Assembly: GCF_011405655.1 (NCBI RefSeq)
Contig: NZ_AP022829.1
Span: forward strand, 2,217,001 to 2,281,000
Direction: 5' to 3'
DNA length: 64,000 nt
DNA from: Adlercreutzia hattorii
GTDB lineage: Bacteria > Actinomycetota > Coriobacteriia > Coriobacteriales > Eggerthellaceae
Shown: piece by piece, positions 16,847 to 37,086 of the stretch
Position numbering within the stretch: the stretch's first letter is position 1
How the letters are laid out: each line of letters opens with the position of its first letter
Notes under the pieces: model-generated
Databases searched by the model: none
Told to the model about the DNA's origin: nothing
The model's input: only the letters and a program-made list of their open reading frames with translations
Program-made: the position numbers and the translations under genes

Positions 16847-16974
16847 TTCTCCTCCTATCTCCAAATGCAGCGGAATCTCTCCGCTCTCCATTCGGGCGCC
16901 ATGCATAAGCGCCCGCCCTCGCGCGGGGTCGGCCCCTCCCCGCTCTCAGTGCGCAGTATAAACCCTTTGTTACT

Positions 16975-17020: not shown

Positions 17021-18406
17021 TTAGCGATTCCAGCTCTTTTCAAACCCCTGGAGGCAAGGCTCACACGCATCGGCAGATCCTGTACTGTCGGTAAGCTGCA
17101 CAGAAAGTTCGCCTGCGGGTACCACTTTCAGCTCCCGCAGGGAACGCCCCTCGTCCACCGCGACGTTGAAAGACACGCACAGCCGCCCGGGTTCCGGCAC
17201 AGCACGACGAGCAACGGAGAGCCAGCGAGGATGAAAGGCCAACGACCCCCCTTCGGCGTCTTCGAGAACCTGGCGGCAGCCCTCCCTCTCTAGGGCTCGT
17301 CTCACCAGATCGCGATCGCCGTCGAAAGCCAGCGCGGTCTTTAGGAAGAAGTCGTCGTAGTCGAAGGCATAGCAGGCGTGAATGTCGGCGAAGGGCTCGT
17401 TCATGTTTCGCACTTGAGCTCGATGCTTGTTCTCCAATGAGCAATAATGCAGCGCCAGTCCCAAGCCTTGCTCGCGCGCCCACAGCATCAGACGCAAGCA
17501 GTCCTCCTCGCTATCCTGCACCGCCAAAGCACCCGCATAGGTGTAGTCGAACATCACCTGCTGGGGAGGGTTGCGCAGCGTAAGGCCCAAGGACTCAAAC
17601 ACGGGCCAGTTCCACATGGCATAGGCAAACTCCAGCAAATTAACGCCGTCAACGCCTAGGGCATCGAGCTTCGCCAAAAGCTCTTTCATGAACGAGTCGG
17701 TTCCCGGAATGACGGGCATCTCCACCATGACCGTGGGCACTTGCTCGCGCGCCCAAGCCATACGTTCCAGCACCTTTTCCAAAAGCTCCGGCTTGTCATC
17801 CTGCTTGACAGAGAATCGAATCTCATGAAGGCCCGCCCGCACGAGACGATCGATCAGCTCGCGGCTCAGCAGGTCCCCGGACGTGTACAGGCGCAGATGA
17901 GCCGCGGGAAACAGCTCGGAGGCACGGGAGAAGAAAGCCACAGCCTCGTCTGCCATCAAAAGAGGCTCACCGCCAGTAAGCGCAATGCAGGCCGGGGAGC
18001 CGGGCTCTGCAGCCAAATCGTCCAGCTGGCGACGCCATGGAAAAGGTCGCTCGCACCAGTAGGCAAAATCCTCCTGATTGGGATTGAAGCAGAAGAAACA
18101 GTCGCGATGGCAGTTGTTCGTCAAGGCAAAACTGCGGCTCACGCAGGAGCCGGTGCACGCCTCGCAGGCAACGCTCATGGGGCCGATGGCCACACTCGCT
18201 CCTCCATTGCGGATGCGAGCCCCCCGCTCGCGCAACTGGCGAAGCAGTCCCTCGCGTTCAAGTCGTTCGCTATCGTACGGGGCGAACGCTATGCCAGTCG
18301 CCTCCAGGGCGGCCATGTGCTCGGCCTCGATGTCCTCGTACAGGGCGAGGGCCGAACGGCGCCCCTCGTCGCCCGCTCCCTTTTCGGTTTCCTTCCCGAC
18401 CGCCAT
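17021..18406 (-). CDS. Radical SAM protein of unknown substrate
   Basis: 461 residues. The radical SAM cluster motif CHRDCFFC (CxxxCxxC) lies near residue 99 and is preceded by an extra cysteine group (CEACTGSCVSR). The SAM-binding ALTGGEPLL follows, and a cysteine pair CEPC lies near the C-terminus, so auxiliary Fe-S ligands are likely. The order of elements (glycine-rich TGGEP, then LYTSGD, then IRFSVK) is that of SPASM/twitch-like enzymes, but I cannot name the reaction. It lies between two copies of the 22-bp palindrome, upstream of the molybdoenzyme I operon and downstream of a GntR gene. Joint control with the reductase is therefore likely, and a role in maturing or modifying a component of it is possible. 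Confidence 0.88.
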   Translation of the reverse strand: MAVGKETEKGAGDEGRRSALALYEDIEAEHMAALEATGIAFAPYDSERLEREGLLRQLRERGARIRNGGASVAIGPMSVACEACTGSCVSRSFALTNNCHRDCFFCFNPNQEDFAYWCERPFPWRRQLDDLAAEPGSPACIALTGGEPLLMADEAVAFFSRASELFPAAHLRLYTSGDLLSRELIDRLVRAGLHEIRFSVKQDDKPELLEKVLERMAWAREQVPTVMVEMPVIPGTDSFMKELLAKLDALGVDGVNLLEFAYAMWNWPVFESLGLTLRNPPQQVMFDYTYAGALAVQDSEEDCLRLMLWAREQGLGLALHYCSLENKHRAQVRNMNEPFADIHACYAFDYDDFFLKTALAFDGDRDLVRRALEREGCRQVLEDAEGGSLAFHPRWLSVARRAVPEPGRLCVSFNVAVDEGRSLRELKVVPAGELSVQLTDSTGSADACEPCLQGFEKSWNR

Positions 18407-20076: not shown

Positions 20077-21057
20077 TCAGCCTCCAGCTACCGCGAACGC
20101 CATACGCATCGCGAGCTCGGGGTTCTGGGAAACGTCGAAAGAGGCGAGCCCTGTCACGCAGACCCTCAGGGCCGCCCCGCCAAGGAGCACACAGACGGCA
20201 ATCCAGAGGCCCTTTGTGCGCCGATCTCCTCCAGGGTAACGACACTCCAAGATAAAGGGCGCGACCAAACCGGCTAGCACGAGCACCACCCAAAACATAA
20301 TCGCCTCATCACCCGTCAGAAGGGCGCGGCCCCCCGCCTCTGTTCGGATATCAGTCAGCAAAAACGTCGCAAAGAGGGCCAGAGCCACTGCCTCTGCGAT
20401 GATTATCGCACGGTCCATGTGGCTTAAGCATCGCAGCGCTGAACCGAACGGCACGCGAGAATCAACGAAAGACGCAACGCCGAAGGCCACGGCCACCCCG
20501 CATGACAGCGACGAGAGACAAAAGAGTGCCGGCACAAGCCACGACCCAAAGGCGACAACCGAGGGCAGCTGCATGAGGAGCACTCCCGTGTAGACCGCTG
20601 TGATAACTCCTGCGATCACAGCGGCAACGGAGGCGACGAGCACTACGAAGAGAGGCAATCGCGCGCCAATACCATTCGAGGCAAGAGCGAAGAAAGTCGC
20701 CAAAGCGCCCGAGGCCAAAAGTGCCCACGCACCCACCGTCACGACCGTGAAGCGAGGGGCCAGCCACAGAGAGAGCACCCGCTCGGGACGGCCGGCATCG
20801 GCCATGAGGCAAAGCGATCCCACCGCCAGCAGCACCAGGCAGAGCACCCAGCCGCGGGATAACAGCTCATGGGGCACTCGCAAGTTTCTTCGCACCCACC
20901 GAATCAAACGGGGCTGCGATTTCTTTGTAGTGCGATAGGTCGCTCTCGTACCGTAGCGTCCTAAATTGGCGCATTCCAATACGCCCATAACAGCACAGGT
21001 GCCAGCCCCCGCTCCCCCGAAAAACAAGTAGGCTACGGCAAGTTCGCTGAACAACAT
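20077..21057 (-). CDS. Stand-alone NrfD-like polytopic membrane protein
   Basis: 326 residues with about eight hydrophobic helices. NrfD/DmsC-like features include AYLFFGGAGAGTCAVMG at the N-end and the LSRGWVLCLVLLAVGSLCLMADAGRP segment. It is diverged from the other two NrfD proteins in the window. No catalytic or Fe-S subunit gene is adjacent, so either it serves another complex or the radical SAM/SPFH genes replace the usual partners. It begins at ATG 21057 and is preceded by palindrome site C. Confidence 0.8.
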   Translation of the reverse strand: MLFSELAVAYLFFGGAGAGTCAVMGVLECANLGRYGTRATYRTTKKSQPRLIRWVRRNLRVPHELLSRGWVLCLVLLAVGSLCLMADAGRPERVLSLWLAPRFTVVTVGAWALLASGALATFFALASNGIGARLPLFVVLVASVAAVIAGVITAVYTGVLLMQLPSVVAFGSWLVPALFCLSSLSCGVAVAFGVASFVDSRVPFGSALRCLSHMDRAIIIAEAVALALFATFLLTDIRTEAGGRALLTGDEAIMFWVVLVLAGLVAPFILECRYPGGDRRTKGLWIAVCVLLGGAALRVCVTGLASFDVSQNPELAMRMAFAVAGG

Positions 21058-21150: not shown

Positions 21151-21825
21151 TCATTTCAAGAGCGGAATCTCCCCGTCAAACGTCAGGATCTCAGAGCCGC
21201 GCTGCAGAAAGTCGACGACGCCGCAGTGGGTGTGGTAGATGGCGACGCGGATGTCCAGGTCGTGCTCGGCGGCAAGGCGCGCCAGCTCCGGCGAGGCGGC
21301 CAGCTCGGCTGCCGCGGCCCGGGCGTTCGCCACGCTGGCCTCGTAGGGGTCGCGCACGTCGCCCAGGGCCGCGACGATGCGCTCGGTGATGGCGGCCACC
21401 GGCCCCGCTTCCCCATCGAGGGCCGCCTTGATGGCGCCGCAGTGGGTGTGCCCCAGCACCAGCAGAAGACGGGTGTGCAAGTGCTCGCAGGCATACACGG
21501 CGCTGGCCAGTTCGATGGGCCCCACCACATTGCCCGCCACGCGGATGACGAACAGCTCGCCCAACCCGGTCATGAAGACGTGCTCGGGCACCACCCGCGA
21601 GTCGGCGCACGTGATGACGCAGGCGAAGGGGCGCTGACCGTTCTCGAACAGGTCGGCAATGCGCTCCTGGGACAGATCGCGCTCATGGTCGAGCGCCTCC
21701 ACGTAGATGCGGTTGCCCTCCACAAGCCGCCGCAGCGCCTCCTCGGCTGGCACATGGGCATCCCCGTCGTAGTCGTCAGCGGTATAGCCCGCCGTCGTCA
21801 ATTTCACAGCTTCATCCTCGCTCAT
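21151..21825 (-). CDS. Beta-class carbonic anhydrase
   Basis: 224 residues. It interconverts CO2 and bicarbonate. Zinc-site motifs are present in order: CADSR (Cys and the Asp-Arg dyad), then GHTHCGA (His and Cys), with the VIRVAGN segment between them. A second GHTHCG-like element (YHTHCGV) near the C-terminus is unusual but may be incidental. I chose the Met at 21825, because GGGAG lies six bases before it; the Met at 21837 has almost no spacing to its GGGAAG. The gene stops exactly where palindrome site C begins. Confidence 0.94.
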   Translation of the reverse strand: MSEDEAVKLTTAGYTADDYDGDAHVPAEEALRRLVEGNRIYVEALDHERDLSQERIADLFENGQRPFACVITCADSRVVPEHVFMTGLGELFVIRVAGNVVGPIELASAVYACEHLHTRLLLVLGHTHCGAIKAALDGEAGPVAAITERIVAALGDVRDPYEASVANARAAAAELAASPELARLAAEHDLDIRVAIYHTHCGVVDFLQRGSEILTFDGEIPLLK

Positions 21826-21907
21826 ACCGTCTCCCATCTTCCCGCGCGATTCTTTCTGATGGCTCTATAATGGCCCGAAGAGAGAATTTGGGCAAAGGGG
21901 CACATCC

Positions 21908-23443
21908 ATGAGCGGGCCGAAGACGAGTCAATTGGAAATCGAGCGGATGATCCGGGCGCAGCTTGAGGCGCTGCGCTCCGACGTGGATCACAGTCGGGCC
22001 CGGGCGCGGCGGCGCATCGCGGCGCTCCTGAACGAGCTTCTGAACGAGGCCGAAGGTTGTGCCGAAGCCGAGGAAGCCGCTGCCTCCCTGCGGCAGCTCG
22101 CCGAGGCGGCCCTCGCGCAGCTGACAGCGGAATGCGCTTTTACGCCGGCAACGGCCATGGCGGAATCCGTCGCCCGGACCGAGCGCTGCTCGTCGCGAGC
22201 CGTAGCCATCGCTGATGCCTTCGAGCGCGAGGCGCACCCCCTGGCCGAACGCATCCAGCGAGCCCGCGCCCAAGCCGCAGCCGCGTCCGAAGCACGCGAC
22301 TTCACCGCCGTGCTGGCCAAGGCCGCCAAAGAGAGCGCCACAGCGGCCGCTGTGGAGGCCGCCCGCTCTTTCATGGCCGATGAGCATTGTCTGCCGTCGG
22401 AATCATCGGCCGTCGAAGCCCAGGGCGGATCAAGATCCGCCCCTATGGAGAAGGCTGCTGCAGAGGGGACGGCCATGCAGGTTGAGCCCGTAGGGGGCAA
22501 CCTCGGTCGCCCCTCGCCCGCTGCTGTGGACGAAAGCGGGACATTGATCGCCCGCAACCATGTGCAAGAGGTCGCCCGTCGGGCGCTCGCGCTCATCGCC
22601 TCCCCCTGCACCCTACCTGCCGATCGCGCCCTGCTCCTGGAAACGACGCGCGAGCTGGGCCCGCAGGCCGCCGCGCAGCTGGCGCTTCTGCTCCCCACCA
22701 TGGAACCGAACGCCGCAGCCATGGCCGATCTTATCGCCCTCATCGAGGACGCCGAGGCCGACCTGCGCGCCCAGAGCGTCCCCTTCGCGGAAGCGTTCGG
22801 CACCTTCGCTACCTTGGAGGAGGCCGTCGGCCGCCTGGAGACGCTGCGGGCCCTCCAGCTTCAAGTCGATCGCAACGCCTACCTGAAGGCCTGCATCGAC
22901 ACCGTTATGGCACGCCACGGCTACACCATCGCCCGCTCGGTCACTATGGGGCGCGACCTCATGGGCACCCATCGGCTCTTCGGCCGAGAAGACGCCACCG
23001 AGGGGCTGCACGCCTTCGTGTCGGATGCGGGCGACCTCATGCTGCAGGTGGCAGGGCTGCCTGGCGGCATCGAGGCAGTGGAAGACGGCGAGGTCGTGAC
23101 CATGGAGGCGGCTCCTGGCGGGGCGCGCACCGAGCGACTCCTCGCCGACCAGCACGACTTCTGCGCCGTCTACGACGAGATCGCGGAGGATCTGGCCGCC
23201 TTCGGCATCACCAACACTGTGCGCTACAAGGCCGCACCCGATACCGCCTTCTGCCGCGAGATGCGAGCCGTCGCAGACGTCGAGGCGCGGGCGGGAATGG
23301 CGGAGCGCGACGGAATCCGCGCCTCCAACGAATCTCGCGGGCCAGGGCTGACCGAGGTCAGCCCCTACGGAGAAGATGCGGCGGCGAGGCGCGAAGCGCG
23401 GAAGCGCAGGCGCAGCGGCAACGCGACAAGGGAGATGAGATAG
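21908..23443 (+). CDS. Alanine/glutamate-rich helical protein, first gene of the kinase/AAA+ cluster
   Basis: 511 residues, no family recognised. The first third is Ala/Arg/Glu-rich, with long predicted helices or coiled coil (IERMIRAQLEALRSDVDHSRARARRRIAALLNEL, split by short turns). A linker of low complexity spans about 160-215. The C-terminal part (about 300-455) looks globular: HGYTIARSVTMGRDLMGTHRLFG, LMLQVAGLPGG, FCAVYDEIAEDLAAFG. The tail is very basic (RREARKRRRSGN). No signal or membrane segment is seen, so it is probably cytoplasmic. It is followed by the FHA gene after a single base. The Thr/Ser-containing linkers could be kinase targets, which is inference only. Confidence 0.8.
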   Translation: MSGPKTSQLEIERMIRAQLEALRSDVDHSRARARRRIAALLNELLNEAEGCAEAEEAAASLRQLAEAALAQLTAECAFTPATAMAESVARTERCSSRAVAIADAFEREAHPLAERIQRARAQAAAASEARDFTAVLAKAAKESATAAAVEAARSFMADEHCLPSESSAVEAQGGSRSAPMEKAAAEGTAMQVEPVGGNLGRPSPAAVDESGTLIARNHVQEVARRALALIASPCTLPADRALLLETTRELGPQAAAQLALLLPTMEPNAAAMADLIALIEDAEADLRAQSVPFAEAFGTFATLEEAVGRLETLRALQLQVDRNAYLKACIDTVMARHGYTIARSVTMGRDLMGTHRLFGREDATEGLHAFVSDAGDLMLQVAGLPGGIEAVEDGEVVTMEAAPGGARTERLLADQHDFCAVYDEIAEDLAAFGITNTVRYKAAPDTAFCREMRAVADVEARAGMAERDGIRASNESRGPGLTEVSPYGEDAAARREARKRRRSGNATREMR

Positions 23444-23444
23444 C

Positions 23445-24047
23445 ATGCGCCTGTGCTCCTGCGGCTTCGCCAACCCCGACGATGCGATGCGCTGCGCCGC
23501 TTGCGGAGGCGCTTTTTCGCACGAAAGCGCAGGTGATACCCTGCTTTTGGAAGACGTGCGGAGCGGGGAGGTCGTCCGCATACCGGCCCCAGGCGGCATC
23601 CTTGGGCGCGCCGGCGACTTCTCGCCCGACCTCTTCTCGCCGAGGGTGTCCGGCGTCCATGCCGTGGTGGCCGTCGACAGCGAAGGGCGCTGGACCATCG
23701 AGCACACGGGCCGCAACGCGTCGGCCGTGGAGCGTGGTGGCGTCTGGTCGGATCTGCGCTGCGGCGCGCCCCAACCGCTGTTCGGCGGCGAGACGCTGAA
23801 GCTGGCCGACATGGTGTTCCGCGTGCAGGTGGGCACCCAGGCGGCCGTGGCGGACGGGGCCGCCGTGGAATCGGACGCGCAGAACGCTCCCGCCGAAACT
23901 GCCTGGTCCGTGCGATGTCCCGTGTGCGGGACCGAATATGCCGTGGAAGGCCCCGAAGGTCGCGTTGCCGCCTGCACGTTCTGCAAGGATCCGCTGGATG
24001 CCCGGCAGATCGCGCGCGTCGCGGCGCGGGCCATGTCCGGCCGGTAG
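23445..24047 (+). CDS. Zinc-ribbon/FHA-domain protein
   Basis: 200 residues in three parts. An N-terminal zinc ribbon (CSCGFANPDDAMRCAACG, residues 4-21) is followed by a central FHA-like domain: LGRAGDFSPDLFSPRVSGVHAVV gives the GR..(S)..H core, and LFGGETLKLAD the end. A C-terminal zinc ribbon follows (CPVCGTEY ... CTFC, about 161-182). FHA domains bind phosphothreonine peptides, so this is the likely reader for the Ser/Thr kinase encoded four genes on. Its start (ATG 23445) comes one base after the stop of the upstream gene, and the next gene starts six bases after its stop, so co-translation is likely. Confidence 0.88.
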   Translation: MRLCSCGFANPDDAMRCAACGGAFSHESAGDTLLLEDVRSGEVVRIPAPGGILGRAGDFSPDLFSPRVSGVHAVVAVDSEGRWTIEHTGRNASAVERGGVWSDLRCGAPQPLFGGETLKLADMVFRVQVGTQAAVADGAAVESDAQNAPAETAWSVRCPVCGTEYAVEGPEGRVAACTFCKDPLDARQIARVAARAMSGR

Positions 24048-24053
24048 GCCGCC

Positions 24054-24728
24054 ATGTTCGTCGACCGCATCTACTTCCCCGTCACCACCTTAGGTCCCGG
24101 CGAGCGCGTCGTCGTGTGGACCTGTGGCTGCACGAAGCGATGCCCCGGCTGCGCCAATCCCGAGCTGTGGGAGACGCGCCCCGAGGCCGCCATCGAGCCC
24201 GCGCGCCTCGCTGCCGTTCTGAACGACCTTGCCGGGCGCACCGGTGCCCATCGCATCACCTTCACCGGCGGCGATCCGCTGGAACAGGCGCCGGCCCTCG
24301 CCTCCGTGCTCGCGGCTATCCGCTCCGCCTTCGACGACATCCTCATCTACACCGGCTACACCTTCGGGGAGCTCACCGCCATGCCCAAATTACCGAAAGG
24401 CCTGCTTCCCCTCCCCTCCTCCCCGCAACCAAGCAGCGGCGGCCTTCCCAACGAAGGAAGCGCCGGGGCCGCCCCCAGCGCGCACCCGGAGGATGCGCCG
24501 CTCATCGACGTGCTCATCGACGGGCCCTATGTCGAGGCGGAAAACGACGGCGTCTGCGCGCTGCGCGGTTCCACCAACCAACGGGTCATCGTGCTCAATC
24601 CGGCACTGGAAACCCTGTATCACGAGGAGATGCAGAAACCGCGCTCGGTGCAGAACGCGGTGTTCGACGGCCGGGCGATATCCATCGGCATCCACGGCCG
24701 GCCCCAAACGACCCGCGAGAAGGAGTAG
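24054..24728 (+). CDS. NrdG-like radical SAM (4Fe-4S) activating-enzyme-type protein
   Basis: 224 residues. The cluster motif is CTKRCPGC (CxxxCxxC) near residue 27, and FTGGDPLEQ is the SAM-binding element; YTGYTFGEL and IDVLIDGPYV are typical of ribonucleotide-reductase and pyruvate-formate-lyase activases. About 35 low-complexity residues (Pro/Ser/Gly/Ala-rich, about 115-150) are inserted where these proteins normally have a short loop. No glycyl-radical enzyme is encoded in the window, so the substrate is unknown; a protein of this cluster is a reasonable guess. The gene is enclosed tightly by FHA and AAA+ genes. Confidence 0.9.
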   Translation: MFVDRIYFPVTTLGPGERVVVWTCGCTKRCPGCANPELWETRPEAAIEPARLAAVLNDLAGRTGAHRITFTGGDPLEQAPALASVLAAIRSAFDDILIYTGYTFGELTAMPKLPKGLLPLPSSPQPSSGGLPNEGSAGAAPSAHPEDAPLIDVLIDGPYVEAENDGVCALRGSTNQRVIVLNPALETLYHEEMQKPRSVQNAVFDGRAISIGIHGRPQTTREKE

Positions 24729-24732
24729 CCCC

Positions 24733-26622
24733 GTGAACATGCCTACCTGGCAGCGCGAGCTGGAGAACTTCATCGGCATCAAGCCGCTCTTCGTGCTGGA
24801 GGGCAACGTGTCCGACCTCTACCCGTGGGACTGCGAAGGGCAGACCCAGTTCCTTCCCCTCGCCCACATCCTGCCGGAGCTGTTCGCCGCGCCGGACGGC
24901 ACACGGCCCTACCGGTTCCTCTACGTGGATCCGCTGCGGGGCGTGCACGATCCCCTCGGCACCGGCGAGGTGCGCGCGCTCGCCCAGGCGGCCCAGCGCG
25001 AAGCGGAACGCCTCACCGCCGAGGCCGAGGCCTTGAACCCCGGCGCCGACCCGGCGAGCCGCCAGCAGCCCTTTGCCGCCAACCGCCTCGTCCACGACTC
25101 CCTGCTCGTGCGCGCGGCCCTCTCGCGGCGGCTCGGAGAGGAAGAACCCCGCTCCGTCGCCTGCGTGTTCGACTTCGCGAGCCGGCTCGCCTCCTCGCCG
25201 GAGGACCTCACTCCCGAGGAGAACGCCGTGTTCATGAACCTGCTCCTCGGCGCGAAAGACGCCATTCGCGGGGACGGCGAGCACGTGAACACCCTCGTCC
25301 TTGTCGCCAACAAGGCCACCGACCTGCCCTCCTGGCTTGTGCGCGGCAACCCCGACGTGCGCGTCATCGCACTGCCCAGCCCCGATCGCCCGGCCCGCGA
25401 GGCTTATCTCGACATCGCCTTCCCCGACCTTGCCGCGCCCGAGCTCGACCGTCCTCGCGAGAAACTCGTCGACACCACCGACCGCATGCTGCTCACCGAG
25501 CTGGACGAGCTGCGGCGTCTGTACGCCCGCGGCGGCACGGCGCCGGAGCATGTCACCGAGCTCGTGGACCTCTACAAGTACGGCATCCGCGAGAACCGCT
25601 GGAGCGCCATGATGGACAAGCTGCGCGACGACCCCGCGGCCGCCCTGCGCCGCCGCGTGAAGGGCCAAGAGCCCGCCATCGCCAAGATCGTCTCGGTGCT
25701 CAAGCGCTCGGTGCTGGGCTTCTCCGGCATGCAGCACTCATCGGGCACCAAGCCCAAAGGCGTGCTCTTCCTCGCCGGCCCTACGGGCACGGGCAAGACG
25801 GAGATCGTGAAGGCGGTCACCGAGCTTCTGTTCGGCGACGAGCGCAGCTACCTGCGCTTCGACATGTCCGAGTACGCCGCCGACGCCTCCGACCAGAAGC
25901 TCTTCGGAGCCCCGCCGGGCTACGTGGGCTACGAGGCCGGCGGCCAGCTCACCAACGCCGTGCGCGCCAACCCCTTCTCGGTGCTCCTGTTCGACGAGGT
26001 GGAGAAGGCCCATCCCTCCATCATGGACAAGTTCCTTCAAATCCTGGAGGACGGCCGCATGACCGACGGCCAGGGCCAGACGGTGTACTTCGGCGAGACC
26101 CTCATCTTCTTCACGAGCAACGTCGGCATCTCCGAAGAGCTCCTCGACGAGCACGGGCGCACCATCGGCCGCCGCAACATCGTGCAGCCCGGCGAGCCCT
26201 ACGACGTCATCTGCGCCCGGGTCCAGCAGGCCATGGCCACGCACTTCAAGCCCGAGGTCTTGAACCGCATCGGCGACAACATCGTCGTGTTCGACTACAT
26301 CTCGCCTGAGGCCTCGCGCCTCATCCTGGAATCGCAGATCCGAAAGATCAACGGAAACGTGCGGAACCGCTGCGGCATCACCGTGGCCGCCGCCCAGGCC
26401 ACACTCGACCTTCTGGCCGAGCGCGCGCTAGCCCCCGAGGTGCGCGAGAACGGCGGCCGCGGCATCGGCAACCTGGTGGAGGATGCGTACCTGAACCCGC
26501 TGTCCACCTTCATCTTCGACGAAAACGTGGAAGCTGGCGAAGCCGTAGAAGCCGTCGCCAGCGCCGGCGCTGTCACGTTCCGCAGGGCCGATGAGGGGGC
26601 CGGAGCCACTGATGGCTGCTAG
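24733..26622 (+). CDS. ClpB-like AAA+ ATPase with inactive N-terminal half
   Basis: 629 residues. The C-terminal half is a Clp/Hsp100 D2-type module: Walker A GPTGTGKT (about 349), APPGYVGYEAGGQLTNAVR pore/arginine region, Walker B LLFDEVEKAH (about 418), sensor TSNVG, and a D2-small domain (FKPEVLNRIGDNIVVFDYI). The N-terminal half (about 1-290) looks like a AAA+ fold without a P-loop (FVLEGNVSDLYP, VACVFDFASRL, TLVLVANKATDLP). No ClpP-binding loop or Clp N-domain is obvious, so unfolding or remodelling rather than proteolysis is likely. The start is GTG 24733: AAGGAG sits seven bases upstream. The 3' end overlaps the kinase gene by 11 bp. Confidence 0.93.
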   Translation: MNMPTWQRELENFIGIKPLFVLEGNVSDLYPWDCEGQTQFLPLAHILPELFAAPDGTRPYRFLYVDPLRGVHDPLGTGEVRALAQAAQREAERLTAEAEALNPGADPASRQQPFAANRLVHDSLLVRAALSRRLGEEEPRSVACVFDFASRLASSPEDLTPEENAVFMNLLLGAKDAIRGDGEHVNTLVLVANKATDLPSWLVRGNPDVRVIALPSPDRPAREAYLDIAFPDLAAPELDRPREKLVDTTDRMLLTELDELRRLYARGGTAPEHVTELVDLYKYGIRENRWSAMMDKLRDDPAAALRRRVKGQEPAIAKIVSVLKRSVLGFSGMQHSSGTKPKGVLFLAGPTGTGKTEIVKAVTELLFGDERSYLRFDMSEYAADASDQKLFGAPPGYVGYEAGGQLTNAVRANPFSVLLFDEVEKAHPSIMDKFLQILEDGRMTDGQGQTVYFGETLIFFTSNVGISEELLDEHGRTIGRRNIVQPGEPYDVICARVQQAMATHFKPEVLNRIGDNIVVFDYISPEASRLILESQIRKINGNVRNRCGITVAAAQATLDLLAERALAPEVRENGGRGIGNLVEDAYLNPLSTFIFDENVEAGEAVEAVASAGAVTFRRADEGAGATDGC

Positions 26623-29515
26623 CCCGAACATCTCGCGGGAGCCGCGGCAGGACGTGGCACCCACCATCGTGGACGCCGCTCCCACGCTCGTGGACATCGA
26701 CTCCACCGCCCCCGTCCTCTCCGGTGCCGACCTTCCCTTCCAAGGCGACGGAGACCGCACCTTCACCCTGCACACCGCCGACGTCATCGGAGCCGGCGGC
26801 CAGGGCACGGTCGTCGCCACCACCGATGAGGAGGGCCGCACCTTCGTCGCTAAGATCGCCTACCAGCCCCACGCCGTGCGCGACCGCCTCGCACGCCGGG
26901 CCGTGCTCGGCTACCTGCGGCGCCTCATGGCCGAACACCCCCTCGGTGAGGAGCACTTCCGCGAGACGCACCTCATGCCCCTGTACGCCACGGGCCAGAT
27001 CAGCGACGAGGTGCCGGGGCTCGGCGAGTCCACCTACGATGTGGTCGTCATGCCCCTGTGCGACGACGCCTTCACCCGCGACGGCGCCTCCTTCGAAGAG
27101 CTGCGCGACAGGATCATTCCACAGGCCGCCAGCGCGCTTGCGCATCTGCACGACGAGGGCATCGTGCACCGCGACGTGAAGCCGAAGAACCTCTATCTTC
27201 TAGAAGGCGAGGTGGTGCTCGGCGACTTCGGCATCTCCTCGGTGCTGGAAGAGGGCCGCGATACCGGCGCCACCAAGGTGGACCGCCGCACGCCGGGCTA
27301 CTCGCCCCATTCCTCGGTGGTGCAGCGTGAGAACGACTGGTACGCGCTCGGCTACACCATCTGGACGCTGTACAACGGCGGCCGTCACCCGCACCAGACG
27401 CTCATCGACGGCGACGACCTGTCGGCGGTGCTCGCCGGCGGCCGTCCCGTAGCCTTCGAGGCCCGCGCGCCCGAGCATGAGACGCTGGGCCAGCTCATCT
27501 ACGGGCTCACCTACGCCCATCCCCAGGGGCGCCTCGGTTACGAGGACATCCAGCGCTGGCTGGCCGACCCGGACGCGTTTCGCTACCGCGACCCGCTGGA
27601 CGCCGCCGCCATGGCGGGGCCAGCGGGCTATCAGTTCGAAGGCAAGGTCTACGAGAGTCGTGCTACCCTGGTCACGGCGCTGGCGAATAATTGGGAGAAA
27701 GCCAAGCGCCACCTGTACACCCACGGGTTGGAAGACTACTTCCGCAAACTCGGCGAGACAGATCTGGCCGTGGCCCTGAACGACATCACCGACCGCGATC
27801 CGGACACGCTGCCCGAGGACGAGAACGGCGACGAGGATCTGGGGCTTTCCCGGGCGCTTACGCTCATCGACCCGGCGCGCGGCGCTGTCTTCTGGAGGGG
27901 CGAGGCCGTCGTGCCCGGGGCCTCCGCCGTAGATGCCCTGTTCGCGCGAGCCTCGGCCACGCCGCTCGGCTTCTACCGCCTTATCGCCGACGAGGAAGCG
28001 GTGCGCGACCTTCTGGGCATCGTGGCCGTGGCCGGCTTTTCGGGCCCGGCCCGCGCCGGACTTAAGTGGCTGCGCGAGCACGAGGGCGCGAATGCGGGCG
28101 AGAAGGTGGACCGCGTGCTGGCGGTGCTGGAGGCCACGGCGGCCGACAAGCAAGCCGTGCGCGCCTTCGCCGTCCGCTACGGAAGCGACGGCTGGGCGGC
28201 GTGGGTGCAGCGGAACTTGAAGGCCTACCACGGGCGCACCGGCGCCGGAGACAGGCTCATCCGGGCCGTGGGCTCCACGGCCGTGGACGACTCCGCCCCT
28301 CTTGCCGCCACCGCCGAGGCCCGCGCCCGCCTGGTTCAGCGCGCCGACGACATGGCCGCCCACACCGAGGCGAGCCCGCACATCCACCACTTCGGCATCG
28401 TCCGCGCAAGCGAGGCGGTGGTGCCCGCCACGGCTGCCGGCTACTTCACCGCGGAGCTGTTCGGCCGCCCCGTGCCCCGAGGCTTCGTCACCGAGCTCAT
28501 GGAGGTCTCCGCTACCGATAAGGGCGCCGTGGCCTGGGCCCGCAAGCACCTGCGCGGTGCCCGCAGCGACACCCTTGCCGAGGACGCCGTCGCGGCCCTG
28601 GAGGAGGCCGCTTCCCAGATAGATGCGCTGGCCGACGCCGAGGGAAAGCACGCTCCTGTGGACGGCCTTTCCAAACCCGCCTTTTTCGGACGGCTCGTCC
28701 TCGCGGTCGCCTTCGTCCTTTTGGTGTGCTTCGTCACGCCCCGCTTCACCTTCGGAAGCTGGAAGAACGGCGTCGTGAACGCCGGCGAGCCGCTCGCCAC
28801 GGCGGCCACGGTGCTCATCTCCCCCACCGGCATGGGAGAAAACTCGGTGTACCCGGACGCGCTCTGGGACATCTCGGCCGTGCCCACGGCCACCTTCACC
28901 GGAGCGGCGCTCCTCGGTTTTCTGGCGGCGGCCGCCACCGTGCTCGCCCCCAAGTTCGCCAGCGCCGCCTTCGCCATCCGCGGCGTGCGCACCCGCGGGC
29001 AGACGCGCCGGCGCGCCACGGCCCTGCGCAAGGAGGCGGCCCGCATTGCGGAAGGCGGCGGCGAGGCCGCCTGCTGGATCACCGGCAACGAGGAAGGGCC
29101 CGTCCCGGTGGCCCGAGACACGAGCGCGTTCATCGCGAAGACCCGGGCGCGCCGGCACCCCGAGGCCACCGCCACGGCCCTTTCCAAAGGGTTTTTCTGG
29201 GGCGGGGCGCTCATCGCGGCGGCCGGCGTCACCATCGTCACCGCCTCGGGACTGGGCTATGGCGCCTGGGCCGACCTGGCCAGCGAGACCGGTTGGTACT
29301 TCCTGCAGGACCAGCTCATCTGGGGTATCGCCTACTGCGGCCTGGCCGCCCTCTCCTTCGCCGTCATCGCCGTCGCGCGGCGCGAGCATCCCACCATGGT
29401 CACGCTGACGCTTCTGACCATCGCCTGCGTCATCCCCTTCCTCGTCCTGTTCGCAGGCACCATCGGCATCTTCATCGTCGTCCTGTACTTCATCTTCTCC
29501 CTCTTCCGCCGCTAG
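26612..29515 (+). CDS. Large membrane Ser/Thr protein kinase
   Basis: 967 residues. The N-terminal kinase domain has P-loop GAGGQG (60-65), lysine in FVAK (81), catalytic HRDVKPKN (186-193), DFG (205-207), a TPGYSPHSS activation/P+1 segment and DWYALGYTIW. The middle (about 300-690) is helical and unassigned. Five hydrophobic segments follow (about 693-712, 760-780, 863-883, 905-922, 938-965). The kinase therefore faces the cytoplasm and is anchored at its C-end, unlike PknB-type kinases, and has no PASTA repeats. ATG 26612 has GGAG six bases upstream and overlaps the AAA+ gene; a Met 21 bp earlier is less well placed. The FHA protein is its probable reader. No PP2C phosphatase is encoded nearby. 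Confidence 0.93.
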   Translation: MAASPNISREPRQDVAPTIVDAAPTLVDIDSTAPVLSGADLPFQGDGDRTFTLHTADVIGAGGQGTVVATTDEEGRTFVAKIAYQPHAVRDRLARRAVLGYLRRLMAEHPLGEEHFRETHLMPLYATGQISDEVPGLGESTYDVVVMPLCDDAFTRDGASFEELRDRIIPQAASALAHLHDEGIVHRDVKPKNLYLLEGEVVLGDFGISSVLEEGRDTGATKVDRRTPGYSPHSSVVQRENDWYALGYTIWTLYNGGRHPHQTLIDGDDLSAVLAGGRPVAFEARAPEHETLGQLIYGLTYAHPQGRLGYEDIQRWLADPDAFRYRDPLDAAAMAGPAGYQFEGKVYESRATLVTALANNWEKAKRHLYTHGLEDYFRKLGETDLAVALNDITDRDPDTLPEDENGDEDLGLSRALTLIDPARGAVFWRGEAVVPGASAVDALFARASATPLGFYRLIADEEAVRDLLGIVAVAGFSGPARAGLKWLREHEGANAGEKVDRVLAVLEATAADKQAVRAFAVRYGSDGWAAWVQRNLKAYHGRTGAGDRLIRAVGSTAVDDSAPLAATAEARARLVQRADDMAAHTEASPHIHHFGIVRASEAVVPATAAGYFTAELFGRPVPRGFVTELMEVSATDKGAVAWARKHLRGARSDTLAEDAVAALEEAASQIDALADAEGKHAPVDGLSKPAFFGRLVLAVAFVLLVCFVTPRFTFGSWKNGVVNAGEPLATAATVLISPTGMGENSVYPDALWDISAVPTATFTGAALLGFLAAAATVLAPKFASAAFAIRGVRTRGQTRRRATALRKEAARIAEGGGEAACWITGNEEGPVPVARDTSAFIAKTRARRHPEATATALSKGFFWGGALIAAAGVTIVTASGLGYGAWADLASETGWYFLQDQLIWGIAYCGLAALSFAVIAVARREHPTMVTLTLLTIACVIPFLVLFAGTIGIFIVVLYFIFSLFRR

Positions 29516-29524
29516 GAGCGCCCC

Positions 29525-29935
29525 ATGAGCACCGATACGCCTTCAACCGACACTGCCGACGTAAGCTCCGCCGCCTCTCTGGCCACCCTGGTGCACCGTC
29601 GCCAGAACCTGCAGATCCTCGCCACCTTCGCCGCCCTCGTGGCGCTTGTGCTGCTGCTCAACCTCACGCCGGTGCCGGGCTGGGTGTGCTCGTTCATCGA
29701 GCTGGAGCCCGACGTTCCCGCCGACCTGCTCGGCGAGGCCTACTGGGACGACTGCTTCGGCGGCCCTCTGGGCGATTTCGCCGCCGGGTCGCTTCCCCGC
29801 CCCGAGCATTTGAGCTACGCCCCCGAGGCCGACCAGTTCCTCGCCGAACTGGAAAAGCTCGCCGCCCAAGAAGAGGTCATCGAAGCCGCAGAAGCCGAGC
29901 AAGCGGAGGCGGAACAGAGTGAAAAGGAGTCTTGA
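29525..29935 (+). CDS. Small single-pass membrane protein, last gene of the kinase/AAA+ cluster
   Basis: 136 residues, no family recognised. A Ser/Thr-rich N-end (STDTPSTDTADVSS) suits phosphorylation and FHA binding, though this is inference. One transmembrane helix follows (about 31-49), then an acidic region with two cysteines (WVCSF, DDCFGG), then a Glu/Ala-rich helical tail. TAGGAG, made partly from the kinase stop codon, lies just before ATG 29525. The spacing of 9 bp from the kinase gene shows it belongs to the same operon. Confidence 0.8.
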   Translation: MSTDTPSTDTADVSSAASLATLVHRRQNLQILATFAALVALVLLLNLTPVPGWVCSFIELEPDVPADLLGEAYWDDCFGGPLGDFAAGSLPRPEHLSYAPEADQFLAELEKLAAQEEVIEAAEAEQAEAEQSEKES

Positions 29936-30372: not shown

Positions 30373-31737
30373 ATGCAGATCACCCCTGCCGAAGTTGCCG
30401 AGACCCTAGCCATGGTGTCCAAGCAGAACTTGGACATCCGCACCATCACGTTGGGCATCAACCTGCGTGGCTGCGTGGACGCCGACGTCAATGCGCTGGC
30501 CTCGAAGGTTTACGACCGCATGACCTCGGCCGCCGAGAAGCTCGTACCCACCGCCGAGCAGCTCGAGCGCGAGTTCGGCATCCCCATCGTGAATAAGCGC
30601 ATCTCGGTCACCCCCATCGCGGAGATCTGCGCCGCGGTGACCGCCGACGACCTCACGCCCGTGGCCGTGGCCATGGACCGCGCCGGCAAGGAGGTGGGCG
30701 TCGATTTCGTCGGTGGCTTCTCGGCGCTCGTGCACAAGGGCGCCACCCGGGCCGATCACAAGCTCATGGACTCCATCCCCACCGCGCTCGCCGCTACCGA
30801 CCGCGTCTGCGCCTCCGTGAACGTGGGCAGCACGCGTGCCGGCATCAACATGGACGCCGCCTTCAAGATGGCCGGCGTCATCAAGCGCGCCGCCGAGCTC
30901 ACCGCCGACCGGCAGTGCATCGGAGCCGGCAAGCTCGTCGTGTTCTGCAACGCCGTGGAGGACAACCCCTTTATGGCCGGCGCCTTCCACGGCTCCGGCG
31001 AGGCCGACGAAGTGGTGAACGTGGGCGTGTCCGGCCCCGGCGTCGTGCGCGCCGTGCTCGCCGACCTGCCGAAGGAAGCGGACCTCACCACTGTGGCCGA
31101 GGCCATTAAGGCCACGGCCTTCAAGATCACCCGCGCCGGCGAGCTCATGGCCCGCGAGGCCTCGCGCCGCCTCGGTGTGCAGCAGGGCATCCTGGATCTG
31201 TCGCTCGCCCCCACCCCGGCCGAGGGGGACTCCGTGGCCGAGATTCTGGAGGCCATCGGCGTGGGTCAGTGCGGAGGCCCCGGCACCACGGCGGCGCTCG
31301 CCATGCTGAACGACGCCGTGAAGAAGGGCGGCGTCATGGCGTCGTCTTCGGTGGGCGGCCTGTCCGGCGCCTTCATCCCCGTGTCTGAGGACGCCGGCAT
31401 GATCCGCGCCGCTGAGGACGGGGCGCTTTCCATCGAGAAGCTGGAGGCCATGACCTGCGTGTGCTCCGTGGGCCTCGACATGATCGCCGTGCCGGGCGAC
31501 ACCACCCAGGAGGCCATCTTTGGCATCATCGCCGACGAGTGCGCCATCGGCATGATCAACAGCAAGACCACGGCCGTGCGCCTCATCCCCGCCATCGGCT
31601 GCCAAGTCGGCGACCAGCTGGACTTCGGCGGCCTTCTCGGCTACGCCCCGGTCATGCCCGTGAACCCCTACGCCGGCACCGTCTTCGCCCACCGCGGCGG
31701 CCGCATGCCCGCCCCCTTGAACTCGCTGAAGAACTAG
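30373..31737 (+). CDS. PFL (UPF0210/DUF711) family protein
   Basis: 454 residues over the full length of the UPF0210/DUF711 family, whose members have a pyruvate-formate-lyase-like barrel fold but unproven activity. Recognisable stretches are [56 protein letters not shown], and [12 protein letters not shown]. Cysteines are conserved in GQCGGPG and [15 protein letters not shown] lies six bases before ATG 30373. In many genomes this gene follows a small ACT-domain gene (UPF0237); that partner is not present here. No link to the radical SAM protein of the upstream cluster is evident. Confidence 0.93.
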
Positions 31738-34057: not shown

Positions 34058-34726
34058 CTAGATTTCTCCCAAATTCTGCAAAGCAACCGCATCTGCAGCG
34101 CGCAACGCCGCCTCACACGGCTCGATCGCGTAGTTCGGCTGCGTTATGACCGGATCGGGCATCGTGGCCACACGCTCGACCATGAGCGGATGATCGGCGA
34201 TGTCGTCGTAGATGCCGAAGTCCAAGGCCCGCTGGGGGCACGCCTCCACGCAAATCGGCCCGAGGCCGGCGGCGACGCGATCGAAGCACCCGTCGCACTT
34301 CTCGATGTGCGCACTCGCCTCGCTGAAACGCGGGGCGTGATAGGGGCACGACAGGGCGCACACCTGACATCCCGTGCAACGCGCGGCATCGACCCTCACG
34401 AACCCGAAATCGTCCTTGGCAATGGCATCGGAGGCGCAAAAGCGCAGGCAGACGGGATTCGTGCAATGGTTGCAGGACATGGAGACGTAGAAGGCGAACA
34501 CGTCGTGCTCCCACGCGCCCTCGTCGTTTTGGATCCAGGTTCCCCCCGCATACTCGTGCACAGTGCGGAAAGCCGGACCTGTGCCCAGATCATGGTAGTC
34601 CCGGCAGGCCATCTCGCAGGTCTTGCAGCCCGTGCAGCGCCGCTGGTCGAACGAGAAGCCGAACTGATGATGCGGGTCGCCCGAGGAACCCGCGCCAGAT
34701 ACGATCGGCATCTTCGCGCGCGTCAT
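34058..34726 (-). CDS. Four-cluster Fe-S electron transfer subunit of molybdoenzyme II
   Basis: 222 residues, DmsB/PsrB-like. The four cysteine sets are CTGCKTCEMAC, CNHCTNPVCLRFC, CTGCQVCALSC and CDGCFDRVAAGLGPICVEAC. No signal peptide. ATG 34726 overlaps the stop of the catalytic subunit by four bases (ATGA), so the pair is translated together. No NrfD or DmsC membrane gene follows; the minus-strand unit ends here. Confidence 0.93.
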   Translation of the reverse strand: MTRAKMPIVSGAGSSGDPHHQFGFSFDQRRCTGCKTCEMACRDYHDLGTGPAFRTVHEYAGGTWIQNDEGAWEHDVFAFYVSMSCNHCTNPVCLRFCASDAIAKDDFGFVRVDAARCTGCQVCALSCPYHAPRFSEASAHIEKCDGCFDRVAAGLGPICVEACPQRALDFGIYDDIADHPLMVERVATMPDPVITQPNYAIEPCEAALRAADAVALQNLGEI

Positions 34727-37086
34727 CGCGCCACCTCCCCTCGTCCCGCTGCCTCACGCCGCGCCGCTTCCGCCCGCTCGGCATCGGTCAAGGGGCGCAG
34801 ACGGACCAAGCACGAGTTGTGGGGGTTGCCGTGCGACCACGCCGTCGGCTCGTCGGAGGAGACCGTGTTGGCGCAGCCGCCCCAGTCGAGACGATCCCCC
34901 CACATGTCCGCATCGTGCCACGCGCCCTCCGGCAGCGCTACCACGCCCGGCATGATGCGCGGCGTCACCCGCACTCGGCATACGAGGGCGCCCCGATCGT
35001 TTTCGACGACCACCAAGCCGCCCGAGACAAGCTGAAGTCGTTCGGCATCGACGGGATTCACCGACAGGCGCCGGGGCGCCACGACCGCAAGCTCAGGTAC
35101 GTTGGCGAACGACGAGTGTGCGCTCTGGCGCCCGTGGCAGCTGATCATCTGGAAGGGATAGGGGCCGACAAGCGCCGCCTCGGCGCCCTCGGGCGCGGCG
35201 ATATACGCCGGAATCGAGCTTACGGGAAGACCCGGGTCGGCCGCCAAGAGCTCCGCGATCTTTTGGTCGTATATCTCGATCTTCCCCGAGGGCGTGGGCA
35301 AGGGGCACCCCTCCGGATCGCGTCGGAAAGCGGCATAGGCCACCGTCTCGCCCTCGTAGGGACGCCGCACGATTCCCCGTTCGGCCAGCTCGCGCAATGC
35401 CTCGTCATCATGGGCGAAGCGGCTCTCGCGCAACCGCAGCCCATCCATCTCGCCCAACGTGGAGGCACCTTCGCAAAAGGCCTCTTCCACCCCAAGCCGC
35501 CGCGCAAGATCGCGAGCCACGTCCCACGCGCACCGGCGATCGAACGCATTGCCGCCCCATGATGCGGCCACGATGACGCCGCGCACGCCGTCGGAGTTCC
35601 CCGACGACACGAGCACGTCGCGCTCGGCCTGAGCCACATCGGGCAGTACGATGTCGGCATATCTCATGGAATCGGTCATCATCACGTCGATGCCCACGAT
35701 GAACTCGCACAGGCTCTCGTCGGCGAGGATCTCGTGAGTCCGATTGACGTCGGCGTGCTGGTTGGTGAGCGCGTTTCCCGCATGGTTGATGATCAACTTC
35801 ACCGGCGAGGGCAGACGCGCGGCGCCACGCACGCCGTCGGAAGCCGTAAGAGCGCGCCCCCGCTCGACCGCGCGCGACCAGAGAAACGCGGGGATGGCCA
35901 CATCAACCGGGTTCTCCCCCACTGGATCATCGGGAAGGACAGGCCGGAAAAGCCGCTCGCGGGCGCCGCTGTTCGTGCCGGGAAGACCGAAGTTGCCCGT
36001 AAGCAGGGAAAGCAGGCAGATCGCTCGGGCCGATTGCTCGCCGAGGGCCGTGCGCTGCGGGCCCCATCCCTGCATGATGAACGCCCGCCTTGCGCCGGCC
36101 AGCTCGCGCGCGAAAGAGGCGATGCGCGCCGAGGGGCACCCGGTGATGCGCGCGGCCCACTGCGGCGTTTTCGCCACTCCGTCCGGGCCCTCCCCCAGCA
36201 CGTAAGCGCGGTAGCTCTCCGAGGCGGGTGCGCCCGCGGGCATCGTCGCGCCGTCGTAGCCGATACAGTACCGATGAAGGAATTCCTCATCGGCAAGGCC
36301 CTCGGTGATGAGCACCCAGGCCACGCCGGCCACGAAGGCCGCATCGGTGCCGGGGCGGACGGGGATCCACGCATCGCTCTCGCCTGTCGCCGCATCGCTC
36401 TGGCACGGATCGATCGCGATTACCCTGAAAGGGCGCCCCTCCCTCGCGGCCTCCTCGCGCGCCTGCGCGAGACGATGCGCTCCGCTCGCCCCGCCCATGC
36501 GCGTGAGCGCCGGGTTGGCGCCGAAAAACACCACCAGATCGGCATGGGACGCTTCGGAAAGCAGCGAGCCGGTGTAGTAGCCGTCATCGCCGTACAGCGA
36601 CATGCACGCCGTCTGCAGCTGCATGCAGCTGTAGTCGCCATAGATGCCCAAGTGTCCGCCGTAACAGTTCATCAGCCGTTCGAACGGCGAGCCGGAGCCC
36701 GACCATATCGCCGTCGCATAGGGAAGGAGCACCGCCTCGTTGCCCCACTGCGCCACCGTGTCGCGGATGCGCTCCGCAATCTCATCGAGGGCCTCATCCC
36801 AACTGATAGGCTCGAACTGGCCCGACCCTCTCGGCCCCACCCGGCGCAGCGGCTCATTCAGGCGATCGGGGCTGCCCAGCCAATAGCGCAGGGCCCGACC
36901 ACGCAGGCACGCGCGCATCTGCAGATTGCCGGGCTCCTCGTCGCCGCAGTCGGTTTCCGTCCAGAGGATCTCGCCCTCGCGCGCCCGAAGGCGCAGCGCG
37001 CAGCGGGATCCGCAGTTCACCGCGCAGGTCTGCCACACCTCGCGCGACCCGTCCCGCCCAGACGACCAACCCTCGCGCCTCACCAT
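34723..37086 (-). CDS. Molybdopterin oxidoreductase catalytic subunit II, no Tat signal
   Basis: 787-residue DMSO-reductase-family enzyme. The 4Fe-4S site is CAVNCGSRC plus MRACLRGRAL, and the protein continues with ISWDEALDEIAERI, PVRPGTDAAFVAG, WGPQRTALGEQSAR, LLTGNFGLPGTNSG and a C-terminal cap (ISCHGRQSAHSSF, VNPVDAERL). Unlike the other two catalytic subunits here, it begins directly with MVRREGWSSGRDG and the Fe-S site, with no twin-arginine signal, so it should stay in the cytoplasm. ATG 37086 overlaps the MarR-like regulator stop by 7 bp and has GGGGGAG upstream. The electron donor is unknown. Confidence 0.94.
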   Translation of the reverse strand: MVRREGWSSGRDGSREVWQTCAVNCGSRCALRLRAREGEILWTETDCGDEEPGNLQMRACLRGRALRYWLGSPDRLNEPLRRVGPRGSGQFEPISWDEALDEIAERIRDTVAQWGNEAVLLPYATAIWSGSGSPFERLMNCYGGHLGIYGDYSCMQLQTACMSLYGDDGYYTGSLLSEASHADLVVFFGANPALTRMGGASGAHRLAQAREEAAREGRPFRVIAIDPCQSDAATGESDAWIPVRPGTDAAFVAGVAWVLITEGLADEEFLHRYCIGYDGATMPAGAPASESYRAYVLGEGPDGVAKTPQWAARITGCPSARIASFARELAGARRAFIMQGWGPQRTALGEQSARAICLLSLLTGNFGLPGTNSGARERLFRPVLPDDPVGENPVDVAIPAFLWSRAVERGRALTASDGVRGAARLPSPVKLIINHAGNALTNQHADVNRTHEILADESLCEFIVGIDVMMTDSMRYADIVLPDVAQAERDVLVSSGNSDGVRGVIVAASWGGNAFDRRCAWDVARDLARRLGVEEAFCEGASTLGEMDGLRLRESRFAHDDEALRELAERGIVRRPYEGETVAYAAFRRDPEGCPLPTPSGKIEIYDQKIAELLAADPGLPVSSIPAYIAAPEGAEAALVGPYPFQMISCHGRQSAHSSFANVPELAVVAPRRLSVNPVDAERLQLVSGGLVVVENDRGALVCRVRVTPRIMPGVVALPEGAWHDADMWGDRLDWGGCANTVSSDEPTAWSHGNPHNSCLVRLRPLTDAERAEAARREAAGRGEVAR

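Follow-up and report, generated by a model that had tools for sequence, protein, structure and literature searches.

Why would a small radical S-adenosylmethionine (SAM) protein be encoded in one unit with a membrane Ser/Thr kinase, a forkhead-associated (FHA) protein and a Clp-like AAA+ motor? The question is raised by six co-directed plus-strand genes at 21908-29935 of a 64,000-nucleotide stretch of the Adlercreutzia hattorii genome (contig NZ_AP022829.1, positions 2,217,001 to 2,281,000), hereafter the window, whose open reading frame (ORF) list gave the genes. In order, they encode a coiled-coil protein (g1), a zinc-ribbon/FHA protein (g2), a NrdG-like radical SAM protein (g3), the AAA+ protein (g4), the kinase (g5) and a small membrane protein (g6). 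An initial annotation, made from the letters alone, had read them as one unit that it did not recognize as a named system, and we likewise found no description of the set in the open-access literature. We conclude that the gene set, which also recurs together in distant bacterial lineages, is a real, sparse module rather than a group of chance neighbors. What is new is the set; each recognized domain family is already known.

A sparse gene module in related genomes

The A. hattorii assembly consists of one 2.9-Mb contig with a single full-length g4, and among 396 genomes of the phylum, 5 had the N-terminal half of this AAA+ protein. Near-full-length g4 matches, among those listed for 197 genomes of the class, came from A. 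hattorii itself, G030 (53%) and G088 (41%), the remaining listed matches being Clp D2-type modules. A scan of named genomes yielded 64 loci. Across L039 to L107 (L denotes loci, G genomes), profile matches, weak ones included, fell in 33 loci for g1, 49 for g2, 57 for g3, 69 for g4, 47 for g5 and 5 for g6. At strict thresholds, and in the 35 loci with at least 4.5 kb on each side of the AAA+ gene (loci below that were left out), this gene had a radical SAM gene near it in 31, a kinase in 29, an FHA gene in 26, and a PP2C phosphatase gene and g1 in 22 each. This count omitted L104 to L107, which have another AAA+ architecture, and L080, the same as L079, was dropped throughout. The radical SAM threshold of 100 bits admits true NrdG too (the other NrdG-like protein of A. 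hattorii scores 133 bits), so calls at 155 to 185 bits lean on position as well; the L100 match lies ~5 kb from the AAA+ gene.

Because the co-occurrence profiles were derived from the very loci that were then counted, an independent draw matters. We searched 291 genomes from the class of Bacterium C-53 (taken as Clostridia) with that genome's AAA+ N-half, and five matched, one being the query genome itself. FHA and radical SAM genes lay beside the AAA+ gene in all four of the others, g1 and a kinase in 3 of the 3 with enough contig, and PP2C in 2 of those 3. Of 68 same-strand runs, 19 have g1, FHA, radical SAM, AAA+, PP2C and kinase genes in this order without interruption, including records from Oscillospiraceae, Collinsella, Fibrimonadales and Ruminococcus; Adlercreutzia-type runs have the same order without PP2C, other runs are ordered differently, and L072, L074, L092 and L159 keep the content in shuffled order. 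The annotated order on an Aristaeella lactis plasmid is kinase, hypothetical protein (g1, with the N-terminal sequence MSGPK), FHA, 4Fe-4S single cluster, AAA, phosphatase, DUF6273 and kinase. All 15 core gene pairs diverge in parallel (r of 0.77 to 0.92, shared species history not being controlled for).

The 35-locus counts and the independent draw thus support the view of the cluster as one functional unit. That its genes stay together in relatives holds for g1 to g5 as a whole, three lone AAA+ loci aside; it does not hold for g6, whose 5 related loci (one at only 20 bits) all belong to Adlercreutzia, Enterorhabdus or Slackia. The lone loci weigh against a unit, since the AAA+ proteins of L070, L076 and L077 are 40-42% identical to g4 and have none of the five partners; so does L088, with no radical SAM, FHA or g1 gene in the stretch covered. 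Taxon names may be affected by binning errors in metagenome-assembled genomes (MAGs): the loci of L063 (Muribaculaceae) and L066 (Blautia) are very similar.

Within the genus, the module either occupies one site as a block or is missing from it. The flanking DUF711 gene was found in 8 of 9 genomes; 7 were read at this site. The cluster sits between the same two flanking genes in A. hattorii (G000), G555, G556 and G557, with extra genes beside it in G555; the last three are the assemblies of L045, L046 and L048 and add no loci. Only ~0.35 and 0.6 kb separate the flanking-gene matches in G560 and G036, and G052 has ~5.3 kb between the flanks, unmatched by any cluster gene used as query. The flank test was run without g3 as a query, its presence there being known from the L045, L046 and L048 runs.

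A module this sparse, with one site either occupied or empty, would suit a conflict or anti-invader system in which the core senses and switches and variable neighbors kill, a role compatible with the mechanism proposed below. Plasmid carriage points the same way: 9 of 72,556 plasmid records match the AAA+ N-half, and of three plasmids examined, that of Aristaeella lactis carries the full core beside DUF4011, and those of Rhizobium sp. C104 and Caballeronia carry AAA+, radical SAM and kinase genes. Effector-like neighbors include an SbcCD-like pair (L065), CHAT (L079), a superfamily 1 helicase plus PIN (L095) and FtsK (L040), and a pooled neighbor scan of 59 proteins, mostly from 144 listed, gave TIR in 2, PADLOC HerA in 2, mad8 in 4, and MkoA and MkoC in 1 each (25 of 81 families listed). 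However, no effector family is widely common, many neighbors are ordinary or unassigned, and the window cluster has no recognizable effector. Nothing matched among 50,697 phage records, viral contigs yielded no relative, and the core proteins matched PADLOC 2023 models only in kinase and AAA+ regions common to many proteins, or weakly (g3 with pVip, 0.0046). A passage of Kaur et al. (2020; PMC7159879) describes GAP1-N2 GTPase conflict systems with a kinase, PP2C and vWA. The likeness lies in an active kinase with a zinc ribbon or transmembrane helices beside PP2C, whereas the module core and its singly listed neighbors have neither GTPase nor vWA (pooled scan, 25 of 81 families listed), and AAA+ and radical SAM proteins go unmentioned in that passage. 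We regard a conflict role as possible, if on balance doubtful; the stress or envelope role that the initial annotation had also suggested is likewise speculative. As a separate observation, SbcD-like and SbcC-like genes follow the module's membrane gene in L063 to L065 (by Pfam in L065, otherwise by family membership).

Kinase, FHA protein and AAA+ motor

The catalytic motifs and C-terminal membrane anchor first read in g5 are both borne out. It matches Pfam Pkinase (9.4e-17), as do 30 of the 30 family members scanned (E ≤ 0.01), the HRD and DFG motifs are conserved, and hydropathy, the sole basis for this, places four hydrophobic segments in the last 282 residues. Its N terminus carries threonine repeats, which, like PP2C in relatives, the MSGPK start and an invariant cysteine of g1, go beyond the initial annotation. 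The repeats are lineage specific: APTIVD and APTLVD in the window, ERIPTMPQ in Ruminococcus (8 times in L069), GETVTV in a Collinsella record, DTLLDM in Slackia, KTxAMGVG in an Oscillospiraceae record, and, in two other members of the phylum, PTQRDQRP (L043) and ATxLDPGR (L042). By shuffling, threonine repeats reached p ≤ 0.01 in 25 of 40 kinases and p ≤ 0.05 in 30 (two L057 kinase fragments were left out). A run with controls, on one kinase fewer, gave p ≤ 0.01 for N-terminal threonine in 24 of 39, compared to 0 of 39 for threonine in the downstream region of the same kinases (2 of 39 at p ≤ 0.05); the count for N-terminal serine was 8 of 39.

Transmembrane segments were seen by hydropathy in 15 of 38 last-in-run kinases. 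Of the 23 kinases without them, 15 have a gene with at least five hydrophobic segments next or next but one, compared to 0 of the 15 with them, so membrane linkage seems to be kept either way in those loci. Two clusters hold two kinases, each with N-terminal threonine repeats (L050, 11723-17767; L137, 4624-6357 and 13180-16038), which suggests a duplication of the input arm.

The zinc-ribbon/FHA assignment of g2 holds across its family: an FHA match at E ≤ 0.01 was obtained for 30 of 33 proteins scanned, and C4, C6, C17 and C20 are conserved at 88-100% together with the FHA residues G54, R55, S69, H72 and N91, which have roles in phosphothreonine binding. Kinase, FHA protein and PP2C are encoded together in many relatives. 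PP2C, part of the set in most, scores above the Pfam cut-off in L065, L039, L086 and L087 and is present by annotation on the Aristaeella lactis plasmid. We think it likely, from sequence comparison, that the kinase repeats are FHA docking arrays. Such docking, which we infer, would resemble a case in the type VI secretion system (T6SS): in Agrobacterium, Fha binds TssL, a protein of the inner membrane, at phosphothreonine 14 (PMC3953482). Several results weigh against this picture. Fifteen of the 40 kinases fall short of p ≤ 0.01 when tested for repeats, three of them scoring zero; the FHA match of g2 itself falls just below the Pfam cut-off (0.0017; 19.2 versus 20.7 bits); and the window cluster has no PP2C, the cluster being what was searched, not the rest of the genome.

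The AAA+ protein had been described as one intact Clp D2-type module joined to a half without a P-loop, and this proved to be a family trait. The C-half P-loop is present in 64 of 65 full-length proteins, and the N-half has no P-loop motif (GxxxxGK[ST]) in 60 of the 65, that of the window included; the other five all come from L104 to L107. The D2 half (Pfam AAA_2, 4.1e-47, residues 345-518) retains Walker A and B, the GYVGY pore loop and sensor 1, with sensor 2 mostly GGRGIGN. The predicted structure of g4 (mean predicted local distance difference test score [pLDDT] 87.6; predicted template modeling score 0.56) aligns almost end to end with two-module chains of ClpC and ClpB. Modeled in this way, g4 would share the two-module fold of ClpB, ClpC and ClpV along with their D2 motifs; it differs from them in the P-loop-less N-module with GN-x-x-D, in sensor 2, and in matching no Clp N domain in Pfam. 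Its consensus has no conserved IG[FL] loop, an absence that, given what is known of ClpA and ClpC, argues for remodeling rather than for feeding ClpP. The gene sets and threonine repeats of relatives, as comparative sequence data, lend support to the suggestion that the unit combines phosphothreonine signaling with AAA+ remodeling.

A membrane kinase, an FHA reader, a PP2C in relatives and a two-module Clp-type AAA+ protein are also the parts of the T6SS threonine phosphorylation pathway (PpkA, Fha, PppA and ClpV). The module could accordingly form the core that regulates a contractile apparatus, type VI-like or otherwise; g4 does score 207 bits with ClpV1, and g2 has a weak match to TagH. Nevertheless, g4 scores higher with ClpB (241.5 bits), its N-module is P-loop-less, and the A. 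hattorii genome holds no VipB sheath (PF05943, the sheath family searched; the E. coli control was positive), on which ground a T6SS relict was rejected. The NrdG-like and MSGPK coiled-coil partners set the module further apart, and we know of no T6SS counterpart of either protein. We judge a contractile apparatus to be very unlikely.

The radical SAM protein and its candidate partner

The NrdG-like radical SAM assignment of g3 was confirmed by Pfam (Fer4_12, 3.2e-27; Radical_SAM, 2.5e-8, 34.7 versus a 29.5-bit cut-off) and by the conservation of its CxxxCxxC motif in an alignment with 56 homologues. Like NrdG, it also has GGxP and the C-terminal DGxY...RGSxNQ; it differs from NrdG in its LGPG...W start. 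A search at E ≤ 0.01 returned no PDB sequence relative.

These motifs, and 90.6 bits with the NCBIfam NrdG equivalog, would fit a second NrdG, with the cluster serving anaerobic deoxynucleoside triphosphate synthesis. Yet the score is below the 126.1 cut-off, and A. hattorii encodes NrdD (C1:78075-80024) and the other NrdG-like protein (C1:60139-60546, carrying CGSSNQR) elsewhere, which adds to the earlier remark that the unit itself holds no ribonucleotide reductase. In addition, NrdD was absent from 3 of 8 module-bearing genomes, subject to genome completeness: Nocardioides immobilis (L091), a Beijerinckiaceae MAG (L089) and Actinoplanes sp. NBRC 103695 (L099), all three with a radical SAM gene near the AAA+ gene. 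The same three have no match to PF01228, although this family also misses the NrdD of the L086 genome; in A. hattorii it matches that NrdD only. Given that some module-bearing genomes lack NrdD, and on the score and the genes elsewhere, we rejected g3 as a spare NrdG, a role that we consider exceedingly improbable. Judging from these gene inventories, NrdD is not its substrate, at least in the NrdD-less genomes, as the initial annotation had anticipated in proposing a target other than ribonucleotide reductase.

A different possibility is that g3 acts as a sensor, its iron-sulfur cluster reporting oxygen or redox state, and not as an enzyme on protein. The cluster motif is invariant, and no dedicated substrate gene is fixed beside g3 besides the core. 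Against this, GGxP and RGSxNQ, which serve SAM and partner binding in NrdG-type enzymes, are almost fully kept too, and we consider a pure sensor improbable.

A. hattorii also encodes two small NrdD-like C-terminal proteins with RITGYLVG, a glycyl-radical-type motif, in which the rest of NrdD is absent. Matches to the C-terminal end of NrdD apart from the full gene occur in 7 of the 7 genomes of the genus searched, whether or not they carry the cluster, and these orphan tails were therefore rejected as radical SAM targets.

Returning to a radical-dependent enzyme, our best guess for its target is g1, since all the remaining core proteins are motor or regulators. It forms one family in 32 related loci, with weaker matches to its C-terminal domain in further loci. 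Its only Pfam match, RecC_C, is below the cut-off. The AlphaFold model (mean pLDDT 83.2) shows a long helical stretch at 8-288 and an alpha/beta domain at 303-455. For the g1 fold, Foldseek gave no match at E ≤ 0.001; VIA-align matches were all below Z 8 and lay mainly over the helical part, barely probing the C-terminal domain, and the g1 profile found mostly coiled-coil proteins among PDB sequences (best E, 0.0014). Mean column identity is 22%, yet the MSGPK start and a Phe-Cys pair are conserved. Residues 1-4 have pLDDT values under 50. MSGPK recurs in g1-like proteins of L043, L089, L091, L098, L137, L139, L159 and L160, among them proteins whose divergence put them beyond reach of the first profile search (a Planctomycetales MAG, the Beijerinckiaceae MAG, Nocardioides immobilis, G266 and the Caballeronia plasmid); a hydrophobic N-terminal segment replaces it in L041, L042 and L058 (by hydropathy) and in L079, L086 and L096 (by eye). 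Of 18 distant g1 candidates, 8 have Phe, Trp or Leu followed by Cys, 7 of them in the aligned position and L043 on the motif only.

Some loci with a radical SAM gene count against these two features as its target: L079 and L095, for example, lack both MSGPK and Phe-Cys, and L085 and L098 lack Phe-Cys. Neither feature is thus strictly tied to the radical SAM protein or a proven target, and the MSGPK glycine and the g1 cysteine were rejected as obligatory sites.

Proposed mechanism and features of the locus

We propose that a membrane-tethered phosphothreonine switch controls a Clp/ClpV-type AAA+ remodeler. The kinase would phosphorylate its own N-terminal threonine repeats, several copies of the FHA/zinc-ribbon protein would bind them at once, and these would gather the AAA+ ring, g1 and the radical SAM protein at the kinase, with PP2C resetting the switch in most lineages, though not from within the window cluster. 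The AAA+ protein, with a putative structural N-ring and an active D2 ring, would pull g1, most likely by its conserved, disordered MSGPK N terminus, and so assemble or take apart a g1 complex. The radical SAM protein would make a radical-dependent change on a partner, for which g1 is the best candidate. The sequences themselves show the composition of the set, its intact catalytic motifs, the threonine repeats, the conserved tags and the patchy presence; every binding step, every modification step and the physiological output we infer. As a whole, we hold this mechanism tentatively and give it slightly less than even weight.

The set departs from T6SS, NrdG/NrdD and two-P-loop Clp proteins in the defining features tested. 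It might represent an undescribed class of machine: a multivalent phosphothreonine array on the kinase would draw in an FHA adaptor, an AAA+ motor of two rings, one of them P-loop-less, and a NrdG-like radical SAM enzyme, which would place a radical-dependent modification on the MSGPK coiled-coil protein, the modified protein also being the motor substrate. This is a more specific claim that we think rather unlikely. We found no named precedent in the open-access literature for a radical SAM protein tied this closely to a remodeling motor and a phosphothreonine switch. If correct, the proposal would extend the roles of NrdG-type enzymes beyond ribonucleotide reductase, including in organisms that lack NrdD, and would have Ser/Thr kinases use repeat arrays as FHA platforms.

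Table 1. Positions of the cluster genes, their motifs and related features (window coordinates unless a locus or contig is named; aa, amino acids).
Feature	Position	Strand	Description
Carbonic anhydrase gene	21151-21837		Divergent; upstream flank
g1	21908-23443	+	511 aa; coiled-coil protein with C-terminal alpha/beta domain, residues ~303-455
MSGPK tag of g1	21908-21922	+	N-terminal; 27/32 family members, one via a TTG start
Phe418-Cys419 of g1	23159-23164	+	Invariant, 34/34 aligned
g2	23445-24047	+	200 aa; zinc ribbon plus FHA; putative adaptor
g3	24054-24728	+	224 aa; NrdG-like radical SAM protein
CxxxCxxC of g3	24129-24152	+	Cluster motif; C26, C30, C33 at 100%
RGSxNQ of g3	24564-24581	+	NrdG-type; G172, S173, N175, Q176 98%; R171 72%
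g4	GTG 24733 or ATG 24739, to 26622	+	AAA+ protein
g4 N-half	24733-25614	+	AAA+ module without P-loop; invariant GN-x-x-D
g4 C-half	25615-26622	+	Clp D2-type AAA+ module; GYVGY pore loop, GGRGIGN sensor 2
g5	ATG 26612 (ORF also open from ATG 26591), to 29515	+	Membrane Ser/Thr kinase
Threonine repeats of g5	26657-26707	+	APTIVD, APTLVD, (D)STAP at N terminus; window p=0.008 by shuffling
g6	29525-29935	+	136 aa; small single-transmembrane protein; lineage-specific accessory
DUF711 gene	30373-31737		Downstream flank
NrdD-like tail protein	L112 5426-5791 = G000:C1 ~617.4-617.8 kb		121 aa as called
NrdD-like tail protein	L110 1480-1719 = C1 ~68.8 kb		79 aa as called

The gaps between the six genes are, in order, +1, +6, +4 or +10, -32 or -11, and +9 bp. 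The range of -11 to +10 bp first given was reproduced with g4 starting at ATG 24739 and g5 at ATG 26612; AAGGAG lies directly upstream of the g4 start, and the g5 start agrees with the N termini of relatives. The g6 product has no Pfam match and, by hydropathy only, one hydrophobic segment. No promoter-like sites were found, terminator-like sites were not above shuffled sequence, and the window has no tRNA and no Rfam match above threshold. Elsewhere in the window are a second, larger radical SAM protein of 461 aa (17021-18406, minus strand, ~3.5 kb ahead of the cluster), an NrfD-like gene (20077-21057) and three minus-strand molybdopterin oxidoreductase genes (14300-16906, 34723-37086 and 40607-43027).

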